Of a stretch of DNA of 32,877 nt, positions 78-27,365 are shown one piece after another. Source of the stretch: Pseudomonadota bacterium (lineage in GTDB: Bacteria; Desulfobacterota; Syntrophorhabdia; Syntrophorhabdales; Syntrophorhabdaceae); assembly GCA_026388275.1 (NCBI GenBank), contig JAPLKB010000002.1, forward strand, positions 1 to 32,877. Direction: 5' to 3'. Each line of letters begins with the position of its first letter. Within the stretch, counting starts at the first letter, position 1. The notes beneath the pieces are model-generated. The model did not search any database. It saw only the letters and a program-made list of their open reading frames with translations, and had not been told where the DNA came from. Position numbers and translations under genes: made by a program.

Positions 78-356
78 ATGCATACATTAAGAAAACTGCC
101 AACAACAGAACCGAATATGAAAATAAGGATGTTTAATATATGCATTATTGGCCTGTTTTTTGTTTATTTTATAGTTCAATATGCTTTTTTTGTCAATTAT
201 ATAATCCCTGACATGTCATTAGCAGCGGTGTCAGGTTGTCCTAAACAAACCATTTTAAGTTTCTCTCAGCAGTGTTCGATTCAGCAAACCATGTTGGCCT
301 CATGCCATTCATTCTTTAAATACTTTTTGAAAAACTGCAATAAAAAGCTTACGTAA
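78..356 (+). CDS. Small putative membrane protein, hypothetical
   Basis: A 92-residue frame starts immediately after the stop of the preceding gene (TAG then ATG). Residues about 18-45 form one long hydrophobic, aromatic-rich segment (ICIIGLFFVYFIVQYAFFV) that could span the inner membrane. The remainder is short, with four cysteines (three of them after residue 64) and a lysine-rich end. An internal ATG at 117 would leave the membrane segment intact. No convincing Shine-Dalgarno sequence precedes either start, and the family is not recognised. The abutting stop/start and the clear membrane segment argue for a real gene; the low complexity and missing ribosome site argue against. Confidence 0.35.
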   Translation: MHTLRKLPTTEPNMKIRMFNICIIGLFFVYFIVQYAFFVNYIIPDMSLAAVSGCPKQTILSFSQQCSIQQTMLASCHSFFKYFLKNCNKKLT

Positions 357-413
357 AAGTATTTTCTGCCGATAAAATTCTAAAGTAACACCATTTTGAC
401 CTTTGGAAGGGCA

Positions 414-785
414 ATGGAAGATTTGCTGTCACAAGATGACCTCAATGAGCTTCTTGGCGGATTGCCTGAAACAACAATAGCAGTCTCGCAAAAAGAAATA
501 AAAGTAGAGGATATACTGTCACAAGATGACCTCAATGAGCTTCTTGGCGGATTGCCTGAAACAACAATAGCAACTTCTTCCAACAAAGAAACGAATGGAG
601 TGGAAGGACTGCTGTCGCAGGACGATTTAAACACACTGTTTTGCATAACCGAAAAAACAATAGCATCGTCAACAAATAAAATGGCTGTTTCTGATATGCC
701 TGCAGAAGACATAAGTTCGTGTGGAGAATCACTGTCTCAGGAGGAAATAGATGAAATGCTGCGCCAGTTTGATAGAGGTATATGA
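414..785 (+). CDS. Tandem FliM N-terminal (CheY-binding) motif protein
   Basis: This 123-residue protein consists of four spaced copies of one short motif: LLSQDDLNELL (4-14), ILSQDDLNELL (34-44), LLSQDDLNTLF (66-76) and SLSQEEIDEML (106-116). The pattern LSQ-acidic-acidic-(I/L)-(D/N)-x-L-L is the signature of the extreme N terminus of the flagellar switch protein FliM (E. coli ILSQAEIDALL), the helix that captures phosphorylated CheY. The FliM middle and C-terminal domains are absent, and the linkers are polar (T, S, N, K) and probably disordered. The ATG at 414 was chosen because it puts the first motif at residue 4 exactly as in FliM and follows GGAAGG; a TTG at 396 is the upstream alternative. 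Inferred role: a multivalent CheY~P-binding protein acting as sink, scaffold or adaptor. A FliM-like peptide used by another response regulator is also possible. Confidence 0.7.
   Translation: MEDLLSQDDLNELLGGLPETTIAVSQKEIKVEDILSQDDLNELLGGLPETTIATSSNKETNGVEGLLSQDDLNTLFCITEKTIASSTNKMAVSDMPAEDISSCGESLSQEEIDEMLRQFDRGI
426..572 (+). repeat. Exact 57-bp direct repeat, period 90 bp, inside the FliM-N motif gene
   Basis: Bases 426-482 and 516-572 are identical over 57 bp and lie in the same reading frame, 90 bp apart. Perfect identity at synonymous positions shows a recent in-frame duplication; the third and fourth motifs of the gene have diverged. Such a repeat can expand or contract by slippage or recombination, so motif number may vary between strains. 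Confidence 0.9.
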
Positions 786-23934: not shown

Positions 23935-24498
23935 CTACCCGAGCATAGTAATAATAGCTTCTGAAACTTCTTTGAGCGACTTATTTTTGTCCATACTGAT
24001 CTTCTGAATCCTGCGGTATGCCTGTGACTCTGTGAGATGTTCCTTATCCATCAGGAGACCCTTAGCCCTATCTACAAGTTTACGTGTTTCAAGTTCATCC
24101 TTGAGTCGTACTATACGTTCTGTAAGAGAGGATTTTTCCAGAAAATGTCTTACCGACAATTCAAGGGCAGGAGAAAGGCTTTCCTCCCTGAAGGGTTTTG
24201 TAAGATATGCCATAACACCGGCATCTCTGGCCTGATCGATGAGATGGCGGTCGGAATAGGCGGTAAGTATTATCACGGGATAGCTGTCTGCTATCTTTCT
24301 TGCCATGTCTATGCCGCTAATATGGGGCATCTTTATGTCCAGTATGACAACATCAGGTTTTTTCTGCTTTATCAGATCAAGGGCCTCTCTGCCGTCCCGT
24401 GCCTCGGCAACCACTTCATGGCCAATCCCCTCCAACAATTCTTTCAGGTCTACCCGGATCAGGGGTTCATCATCTGCGATTAAAATACGAAAGCTCAT
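23935..24498 (-). CDS. ANTAR-domain response regulator (transcription antiterminator)
   Basis: A 187-residue regulator: receiver domain (1-120) with acidic pocket D9-D10, phospho-acceptor D54 (VVILDIKMP), T/S in LTAY and K in LTKPF, followed by a coiled segment and an ANTAR domain (about 130-187: LVDRAKGLLMDKEHLTESQAYRRIQKISMD). ANTAR proteins (AmiR, NasR, EutV) bind paired hexaloop hairpins in nascent mRNA and block intrinsic terminators. The ATG overlaps the end of the kinase gene by four bases (ATGA), so the two are a cognate pair. Possible target RNA elements lie at 29221-29400 and 30700-30747. Confidence 0.93.
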   Translation of the reverse strand: MSFRILIADDEPLIRVDLKELLEGIGHEVVAEARDGREALDLIKQKKPDVVILDIKMPHISGIDMARKIADSYPVIILTAYSDRHLIDQARDAGVMAYLTKPFREESLSPALELSVRHFLEKSSLTERIVRLKDELETRKLVDRAKGLLMDKEHLTESQAYRRIQKISMDKNKSLKEVSEAIITMLG

Positions 24499-27365
24499 AG
24501 TTTCAGGTCATAGTAATTTTTCAATAAAGGAAATACAATACATGCGGTAGTTCTTCCCTCTCCTCTCAACGTAAACCTGCCCCGCAGATCGTCCTTAACT
24601 AATGTGCGGACGATCGTAAGACCAAGATTACCGTCCTTATCAGGGTTGAAGCCGTGCGGCAGGCCTGAACCTTCATCCTGAACAGTCAACGACACGTTGT
24701 TTTCCTTCTCCCCAAGAATTATTGAAAGTTTTCCTTCGCTCTGCCCTTTATAGGCATGACGAGCAGCATTCTGGATCAGTTCGTTCATGATCAGGGCAAG
24801 GGATGTGGCCTCTCTTGAGGGGATCATCATTGACGGCCCCTGTATATCCACTGTCATCCTGGGCTCAATCTGACCCGCAAGAGACAGCCTGCTTACATTA
24901 TCCATAAGCCTCTGCAGATCCACCATACCGATTTCACCCTGGCAAAGTGTTTCATGTACGACGGCAATGCTCATTATACGCGATATGCTGTCATTCAATG
25001 CCTGCTCTGCTGAGATTCCATCAAGGCGTCTGATCTGCATCCGTAAAATACTGGCAACATTTTGCAGATTGTTTTTCACCCGATGATGGATCTCCTTCAA
25101 GAATGTTTTATGCTTCTGAAGATACCTGTTCTCTATAAAAATGGCAAGCTGATTGGTAACGCCCGATAGAAATTCCATGTCTTCCTGTATCCGGTCATAC
25201 TGAAAGGAGAGTTTTTTGTCTTTTTTCCAGAAGAGGTTTAGTATTCCTCTTATTTGTCCCTTGTATGAAATAGGCAGCGAAATAAAGCCTGTCGCAAAGG
25301 GAACAGATATCTCCACCGGACAGTTGTTTACCGGTATATCGGCTATCGAAATGGGCTGGCAATGCTCAATCTGCCACCGCGCAAGGCTTTCATCATTCTC
25401 GGAATAGATATCTTTAGATGCTTTGTCCGCATCATATGCATCTTTTATAAGGAACTCGCCGGCAGGGTCAATGAGCCAGAGACTTACCATTGAAAGTTTG
25501 AGGATACGTCTGATATGCCTTGTAATATTTTTTAATTTTGTATTTGTTGTAATAGACCGTGAAATTTCATTACTCAAATGGTTTAAAATTTCCAATTGAA
25601 CCAGTTTATTGGTCAGCTTTCTGTCTACCTCTATCCTCTGCAAACCTCTGGCAATAAGTCTTGCTATTGTTTTTGCGAGGGCCATATCTTCTTCTTCGGG
25701 CAAAACAATATTGGTCTTCTTTTCCAATAGCAATATCCCGAACCGCCTGCTCTGGCTGTCAAGGAAAATTGAGGTAAAACCGGAGGGTATTTGCTTACTG
25801 TTTATCTGTACAGGAAATCCATCGTTGTCCTGAGTTTCAGCTATCGAAAAGGTATTCCGGTTTTCTGCGGGCAGGTAAAATCTCCAGACTGCCCAGGGAA
25901 ACAGGCTGCTGAGCCTGTCTGACAGCCGGGCAACAAGATGCATCACATCGGTTTCTTCCTGAATAATCTGATTAATTTTACTCATTATTTTCATCTGAGC
26001 TTCTCTTTTGTTCAGCCGCGACGTAAATTCGTAATAAATGCGTTTTCCTTTGTGCATCAATGCAGTAACAGGGTTCAGCTCATCTGAAAAAACAAGCGTT
26101 GAAACCGATTGGTTCTGGAAAACCGGCAGTCCGTCATCAGAAAGACCCTGCTCACCGAAGGTATAATATCCACATACAGGAATCCTGGCTTTTTTGCGAA
26201 GGAGGTCCATTTCTTTTGACTCGTCAGGCCCCATCAATCTCTTTCTTAAGGCACAGGAAAACATCATTGCAAAAGACGGCTTTTTTAAACCTCCCTGGTG
26301 GATGGCCTTGTTATAGGCGGCAAGCCCTGCCTGAACTATATCGTCTCTGGCTGCCCGCATCAGCGTAAGTACCTGATCATTCATCATCAGGGGTCCGAAT
26401 TGTATAGAACCATCGGGCAGTACACATTCAGGAACATTGAGGAGCCAGTTGCCATATAAATCGCTGGTACCGAAGGGAAACTGGCTGAACCAGATCACTC
26501 CGTCCCCCAGATGTTCAATAGGTATGCCGAGCAAATCGGCACAGACCTCAACTGCAGGTCTCCCGTCAAGTTCGTGAACAATGTGTCCTGATGCCTTTGT
26601 AACTAATGCACGTTTTGTTGTAGGAGAAAACCCATGGGCTGTTCCGAGACCGAAAAGTATATCTGTTTCCACAAAAGCAAGGACTAAGGCATCATTGTAA
26701 ACCATATCATTAAGTATCTGGAAATTTGCCTCAAAATGAAAATTGTCGGAAGAACTCCCTCCGAATATGGGAATACGGTTTACCGAGGCCTTCCGGAGTT
26801 CCGTGTGAATATCGTGGCTTAAGGATGCCTGTTTTTTTGTTGCACCCGGAGAGAAAATAATGAGAAACACAGGTGAAACCCCTGCCCCTCTTGATGTTGT
26901 CATGTGCAGCATCTGATGTAAAGGGTGGTCAGGGCTGAAATATTCTGAAACCCCTGCTTCGGCCAATGCCTGTCTGACAGCCTTTTTGTAATCAGAAGAA
27001 ACGTGCCTGCCGATACCTGTCTTTATCCGTAAATGCGGCGAGGCGATAACGGCAACGACAACGCTTCTCGAAAAATACCCATCAGCTATTTCCCCTGCGG
27101 TGCTCGTGCCTATAATTGGACAGTCTCCGACAATTTCGGCAACCCCTCTGCTGACTTCTTCAATGTTAAGCTCTGAGGAGGCAAACACTATTGTTAACGT
27201 CGGTTTAAAACGATTAAGCCGTGTAAGGGCTTCGACCGCAGCCTTACGGCCCATATCGGCATCCTTGCCTGTATGTGTCTTTCCAACACCCGTCTCAATA
27301 TATGCACCCATATTCTCCGGCTGTAACCCCGTTGTGTCTTGATGGGAAATCTTATACATATTCAT
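24495..27365 (-). CDS. FIST-GAF sensor histidine kinase (HisKA_2)
   Basis: The 956-residue protein has FIST_N (about 45-260, PIIGTSTAGEIADGYFSRSV), FIST_C (about 265-415, ending near CALRKRLMGPDESKEMD and PVCGYYTFGEQG), a linker, two GAF-like domains (about 460-600 and 610-745), and a HisKA_2 dimerisation helix with H760 in HHRVKNNLQNVASIL as likely phospho-acceptor. It ends in a HATPase domain with N-box MNELIQNAARHAY, G1 DEGSGLP and G2 GNLGLTIVRTLV. No membrane segment, so it is cytoplasmic and should sense a small molecule, since FIST domains are proposed to bind amino-acid-like ligands. EutW-type kinases paired with ANTAR regulators share the HisKA_2 class. Start codons at 27365 and 27359 are both possible; the ribosome site is weak. 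Confidence 0.93.
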   Translation of the reverse strand: MNMYKISHQDTTGLQPENMGAYIETGVGKTHTGKDADMGRKAAVEALTRLNRFKPTLTIVFASSELNIEEVSRGVAEIVGDCPIIGTSTAGEIADGYFSRSVVVAVIASPHLRIKTGIGRHVSSDYKKAVRQALAEAGVSEYFSPDHPLHQMLHMTTSRGAGVSPVFLIIFSPGATKKQASLSHDIHTELRKASVNRIPIFGGSSSDNFHFEANFQILNDMVYNDALVLAFVETDILFGLGTAHGFSPTTKRALVTKASGHIVHELDGRPAVEVCADLLGIPIEHLGDGVIWFSQFPFGTSDLYGNWLLNVPECVLPDGSIQFGPLMMNDQVLTLMRAARDDIVQAGLAAYNKAIHQGGLKKPSFAMMFSCALRKRLMGPDESKEMDLLRKKARIPVCGYYTFGEQGLSDDGLPVFQNQSVSTLVFSDELNPVTALMHKGKRIYYEFTSRLNKREAQMKIMSKINQIIQEETDVMHLVARLSDRLSSLFPWAVWRFYLPAENRNTFSIAETQDNDGFPVQINSKQIPSGFTSIFLDSQSRRFGILLLEKKTNIVLPEEEDMALAKTIARLIARGLQRIEVDRKLTNKLVQLEILNHLSNEISRSITTNTKLKNITRHIRRILKLSMVSLWLIDPAGEFLIKDAYDADKASKDIYSENDESLARWQIEHCQPISIADIPVNNCPVEISVPFATGFISLPISYKGQIRGILNLFWKKDKKLSFQYDRIQEDMEFLSGVTNQLAIFIENRYLQKHKTFLKEIHHRVKNNLQNVASILRMQIRRLDGISAEQALNDSISRIMSIAVVHETLCQGEIGMVDLQRLMDNVSRLSLAGQIEPRMTVDIQGPSMMIPSREATSLALIMNELIQNAARHAYKGQSEGKLSIILGEKENNVSLTVQDEGSGLPHGFNPDKDGNLGLTIVRTLVKDDLRGRFTLRGEGRTTACIVFPLLKNYYDLKL

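Follow-up and report, generated by a model that had tools for sequence, protein, structure and literature searches.

The gene and its motifs

The N-terminal peptide of FliM is the target of CheY at the flagellar switch (PMC7355467), and its occurrence in four copies within a short protein devoid of any FliM domain raises the question of whether such a gene is functional and, if so, which signal its product would bind. The gene lies at the extreme start of contig C2 of a 3.5-Mb draft genome (completeness 99.5%); the window, that is, the whole stretch of 32,877 nucleotides analysed here, corresponds to this contig. The features of the gene are the following:

414..785, + strand: ORF of the FliM-N-motif array protein, ATG start, 123 aa; dN/dS of 0.18 against the congener G001
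426..455, + strand: motif 1, LSQDDLNELL
516..545, + strand: motif 2, LSQDDLNELL
612..641, + strand: motif 3, LSQDDLNTLF
732..761, + strand: motif 4, LSQEEIDEML, the C-terminal motif, which all orthologues retain
426..482, + strand: 57-nt identical repeat, copy one, period 90
516..572, + strand: 57-nt identical repeat, copy two, period 90

The predicted product is MEDLLSQDDLNELLGGLPETTIAVSQKEIKVEDILSQDDLNELLGGLPETTIATSSNKETNGVEGLLSQDDLNTLFCITEKTIASSTNKMAVSDMPAEDISSCGESLSQEEIDEMLRQFDRGI (translation of window positions 414-785, + strand). Initiation at a TTG at 396 would lengthen the protein by six residues, but the orthologues agree with the ATG at 414. As the first-pass annotation had claimed, the ORF encodes a stand-alone array of four motifs: Pfam detected no FliM, FliN, CheC or CheX domain in the protein, including the FliM middle domain (PF02154) and the C-terminal FliMN_C domain (PF01052), and no match to a known family above its cut-off, whereas NCBIfam searches with the array family yielded only chance-level and weak FliM/FliY matches (FliY model, E 0.13, in 3 of 17 members). 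Neither the window protein nor its orthologues contain a membrane segment, another domain or a recognisable localisation signal. Single-sequence AlphaFold2 prediction gave no usable model (mean pLDDT 42, very low confidence); three of the short helices in it coincide with motifs 1, 2 and 4. This low-confidence result fits a disordered chain but proves nothing.

A degenerate DNA pattern for the first five residues of the motif has four matches in the window, all within the array ORF, compared with 0.39 expected, and at least four matches were reached in none of 100 shuffles. Across the whole genome, a longer motif pattern produced eight matches, four of them in the array gene, versus none for the reversed control. 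The shuffle counts and the reversed-control scan rule out a chance motif. No flagellar or che gene was recognised upon reading the ORFs of the window, in line with the first-pass annotation. Among the genes named by reading are a large FIST-like sensor histidine kinase gene (23935-27365, - strand) and an adjoining receiver gene with an ANTAR-like C-terminal end.

Orthologues and recent expansion of the array

The search for the array in related genomes that the first-pass annotation had proposed, carried out across 46 genomes of the order by protein search and then by alignment search, recovered 17 orthologues, all in the window's own family and distributed over five genera (g1, g3, g4, g10 and g11). 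The same protein family is represented in named records of Syntrophorhabdus sp., Syntrophus sp. and Deltaproteobacteria MAGs. The orthologue alignment used as a query in a scan of the genome contig collection retrieved seven loci, whereas the single array protein retrieved none from the same collection; a plasmid collection contained no match to the array protein. Other proteins of the relatives with a single LSQxx-like match, including a ~500-aa methyltransferase-like protein, a ~350-aa protein ending in ISQDDLNLIL and a histidine kinase, were read and judged to be chance matches.

The orthologues are 56-123 aa long and carry two to four motifs per chain. All have one motif near the N-terminus and a second one, of the form (L/M)(S/T)Q(D/E)x(I/V)Dx(L/M)L, a few residues from the C-terminus, with zero to two extra motifs in between; in genus g4, a degenerate middle motif is retained, such as ELDKLMSDL. 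The earlier description of four equal motifs therefore stands as to their number in the window gene but not as to their equality, the core conserved in the orthologues being one N-terminal and one C-terminal motif. Motifs 1 and 2 both fall within the exact identity between 426-482 and 516-572, which confirms the reported 57-bp repeat. Because the congener G001, in which the first motif lacks the S of SQ, has one repeat unit fewer than the window gene, the four-copy form is supported as a recent local expansion, as had been proposed.

Pairwise dN/dS values among the orthologues range from 0.15 to 0.50, indicating that the family is under purifying selection. The loci differ by genus: a beta-barrel gene is adjacent in g1, the array gene of G003 is flanked by an SDR gene and an rpe-rsmB-htpX block, and in several g4, g10 and g11 genomes, the gene is found near an ArsA-like ATPase-rsmD-coaD block.

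A conserved FliA-type promoter element

The sigma-28 consensus reads TAAAGTTT-n11-GCCGATAA (PMC2859248), and two candidate elements are found upstream of the array ORF:

368..375, + strand: GCCGATAA, predicted sigma-28 (FliA) -10 element, kept upstream of all orthologues
349..356, + strand: TTACGTAA, weak candidate -35 element, 3 of 8 positions matching TAAGATTT, separated by N11 from the -10 element

The -10 element precedes all 17 orthologues (15 perfect matches and two at 7/8), 20-53 bp 5' of the ATG, and was observed also upstream of the array genes at the named loci. Its expectation in shuffled upstream sequences is 0.0006 per gene, and among 331 predicted control genes of at least 100 aa from the same loci as the array genes, it was found within 60 bp of a single one, the array gene of the window. 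Given that the loci differ between genera, the element was retained while the neighbourhood changed. The -35 box of the array genes, taken at a spacing of N10-11, matches TAAAGTTT weakly, at 3-6 of 8 positions; flagellin genes of the order carry TAAG(A/T)TTT-N10-GCCGATAA or near variants. We infer that the array gene is transcribed by FliA, a dependence that is a prediction because the -35 box is weak. A search of the host genome for TANNNTNT-N9-12-GCCGATAA returned six sites, mostly within ORFs, and defined no regulon. At L175:1501 (G000:C16:49440), TATATTTTCCCCTTATCTGCCGATAA, which closely resembles the array-gene promoters, is located directly 5' of a short ORF (72 aa, MATTIRIEAKSV...), a possible further FliA target.

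Association with flagella and chemotaxis

Of the 46 genomes from the order, 37 encode cheA, including all 17 with the array (p 0.009, phylogeny ignored). Similarly, fliM accompanies the array in 16 of 17 genomes (p 0.028, phylogeny ignored), the exception being a genome that is 66% complete, and flagellin in all 17. In G004 and G024, one each from genera g4 and g10, the array, fliM, cheA and flagellin are jointly absent. The link of the array gene to flagella is well supported. However, 19 flagellin-positive genomes of the order have no array gene, so that the gene is accessory and dispensable. Replacement of a missing CheY~P phosphatase by the array is unsupported, as CheX is encoded in 15 of the 17 array genomes.

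The host genome encodes two cheA-cheY systems, with the second CheY on contig C9. On contig C59, a single complete fliM (MEQILSQEEIDALMSGL...) precedes fliN and a series of export genes, flhB, flhA, flhF, flhG and fliA. After these come cheB, a HEAT-repeat-like gene, cheR, cheY and cheA, with cheW separated from cheA by one gene (names beyond profile matches were assigned by reading the proteins). The array gene, on contig C2, sits outside this fli/che cluster. Two genomes with the array, G010 and G032, have a single detected cheA each, located on the fliM contig, which makes the motor chemotaxis system the likely partner of the array.

CheY contact positions

In the E. coli CheY-FliM-N complex, FliM residues L6, Q8, I11, D12 and L14 contact A90, I95, A99, Y106, V108 and K119 of CheY, and L15 makes contact as well in a modelled Vibrio complex (PMC3774744); CheY K119 and FliM D12 form a salt bridge (PMC7012829). 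In our alignment, the array motifs retain the pattern hydrophobic-S-Q-x-(D/E)-hydrophobic-(D/N)-x-L-(L/F), that is, the FliM positions that touch CheY, which bears out their original assignment to the FliM-N type and suggests that they would bind CheY~P. The position of FliM D12 is occupied by Asn in motifs 1-3 of the window gene and by Asp in the C-terminal motif; the Asn may weaken motifs 1-3 for CheY. By comparison with E. coli CheY, T87, K109 and K119 are all preserved in the C59 CheY, which carries Phe instead of Y106; the residue at position 106 is Trp in the C9 CheY, which has Val in place of K119.

Motif arrays elsewhere in the phylum

Proteins combining the motif with other parts were collected by a phylum-wide search and from the named loci. 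In a protein of Desulfobotulus alkaliphilus (L131:4059-6656), a transmembrane segment comes after 16 FliM-N-like motifs, and the C-terminal end is FliL-like (Pfam E 0.008, below the cut-off). G225 (L132:2934-5345) has the same arrangement with 11 motifs; both genes are located in a flagellar operon, between fliA and flgF/flgG. G324 encodes a FliN with two N-terminal motifs (LTQEELDKLL and VSQDELDKLL; L116:1516-2178) immediately 3' of fliM, and G268 a CheX-CheX-motif-FliN fusion, cut by the contig end (L135:2-1507, - strand), with a FliY-like layout and CheX domains. The FliL-like, FliN and CheX-FliN cases tie the motif, in multiple copies too, to the switch, CheY~P phosphatases and flagellar operons.

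A motif-free homologue of the FliL-like C-terminal part is encoded near flhF in another member of the Desulfobacterota (G292, L142:6988-7704). A stand-alone protein of G173 (L136:3795-4718, - strand; 307 aa) combines about five FliM-N-like motifs with a C-terminal part that is charged and helical. Looser DDLDALL arrays lie just 5' of valS in G060, G132 and G160; these proteins (G060 L137:1828-3120, - strand; L107; L110) are Ala/Pro-rich, contain repeats of the unit (LGQ)DDLDALLxEL and end in a conserved helical C-terminal stretch, and a related gene occupies the same place upstream of valS in G270 (L138:3848-4462, - strand). Two membrane proteins have cytoplasmic arrays of the QDDLDALL/QSDIDALL type: a DUF3999 protein encoded upstream of a recJ-like gene (G418, L133:300-3173) and one whose periplasmic domains are bacterial Ig/cadherin-like (G297, L134:1771-3807).

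A candidate competitor for CheY~P and its alternatives

Taken as a whole, our analysis suggests that the array protein is probably a soluble competitor for the CheY~P signal of the motor, of a kind that has not been described. The specific model, which we hold with moderate confidence, is that the array gene belongs to the late (sigma-28/FliA-class) part of the flagellar-chemotaxis regulon and that its product would be a soluble, disordered, multivalent ligand of the flagellar CheY. Each motif would mimic the N-terminal peptide of FliM, which grips CheY~P on its alpha4-beta5-alpha5 face, and because FliM-type motifs would be presented with no C-ring domain behind them, the array would rival FliM in binding CheY~P. 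The pool of free CheY~P would be buffered and switching damped, with at least two motifs per chain providing more capacity and avidity. We infer the decoy or buffer effect on CheY~P; the direction and magnitude of any change in switching are speculative. More tentative, and in our estimate rather less probable than the model itself, is its extension, whereby motif number, changed through tandem duplication, would tune the effective CheY~P threshold of the motor, and the membrane-anchored forms of other members of the phylum, which reach 16 motifs, would concentrate CheY~P there.

The main rival is a bridging or localising role, in which the two end motifs would keep a pair of CheY~P molecules, or one CheY~P together with a different receiver, at the motor, the pole or the receptor array, so that CheY~P would be raised locally rather than lowered in its free form. 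The conserved core of exactly two motifs at opposite ends favours this role, and the membrane-anchored relatives in flagellar operons suggest recruitment as one use of arrays; nevertheless, the lack of any membrane segment, further domain or recognisable localisation signal in the window protein and its orthologues speaks against it, and we consider this role rather unlikely. Still less probable is a partner outside the motor pathway, be it the second CheY on C9 or another response regulator. The presence of two cheA-cheY systems in the window genome and the Trp at position 106 of the C9 CheY speak for it, but this CheY has no counterpart of K119, the promoter element is one of flagellar type and G010 and G032 carry the array with a single detected cheA, on the fliM contig.

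FlgM, the anti-sigma-28 factor, is a small, disordered regulator with a FliA-type promoter, and the small size, predicted disorder and promoter element of the array gene resemble it. A FlgM-like function in flagellar assembly or gene expression, with the motif serving a contact other than CheY, is nonetheless improbable to us, given that Pfam detects no FlgM family match and that what is conserved in the sequence amounts in essence to the CheY-contact motif. That the ORF is a non-functional product of chance, or of the decay or truncation of a fliM, is hardly credible. The array protein does start in a FliM-like manner (MEDLLSQDDLNELLGGL versus MEQILSQEEIDALMSGL), but the intact fliM on C59, orthologues in five genera, the dN/dS values and the conserved promoter element all argue against decay, and the first-pass annotation's own counter-hypothesis, a decayed fliM with remnants of the middle domain, is excluded by that fliM and by the missing PF02154 match.

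If competition for CheY~P is indeed the role of the array, direct titration by a gene-encoded multivalent competitor, expressed with the late flagellar genes, would constitute a further layer of control besides the kinase, the phosphatase and extra CheYs known to set the CheY~P level, acting on a switch that responds very steeply to CheY~P. The natural series of 2, 3, 4 and up to 16 motifs would then lend itself to studying how valency affects switching.

Comparison with known systems

The docking motif itself is already known from FliM and from Bacillus subtilis FliY (PMC8809382), whereas the stand-alone array appears to be new: neither stand-alone FliM-N motif arrays nor CheY sinks of this type were found in the open-licence literature searched, and the FliL-like array proteins of D. 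alkaliphilus and G225 had no description there as far as searched. With the N-terminus of FliM, the array shares the motif and the CheY-contact positions, but it has no middle or C-terminal domain, carries two to four motifs per chain rather than one and is encoded outside the fli cluster behind its own FliA-type promoter element. FliY of B. subtilis, which joins CheC/FliM-like and FliN domains to an N-terminal CheY-binding motif (PMC8809382), likewise displays a FliM-type motif outside FliM; by contrast, the array has multiple motifs and, according to Pfam, neither a phosphatase (CheC/CheX-like) nor a FliN domain.

CheZ, with its C-terminal CheY-binding peptide (PMC12270135), offers another case of a short linear CheY-binding peptide in a chemotaxis protein. 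For the array, binding is predicted, its sequence is of the FliM type and it has neither a phosphatase domain nor a CheZ match in Pfam. The phosphate-sink CheYs that operate in multi-CheY chemotaxis systems, discussed, for example, for Rhodobacter sphaeroides (PMC2924250), resemble the array in that it, too, would reduce the CheY~P signal reaching the motor; however, such a sink is a receiver that drains phosphoryl groups, whereas the array has no receiver domain and would titrate CheY~P by binding. A further likeness is to the proteins of D. alkaliphilus and G225, flagellated members of the same phylum, which also contain tandem SQ(D/E)(D/E)I(D/E)xLL arrays without FliM domains but differ from the window protein in their 11-16 motifs, membrane anchor, FliL-like periplasmic end and location within a flagellar operon.
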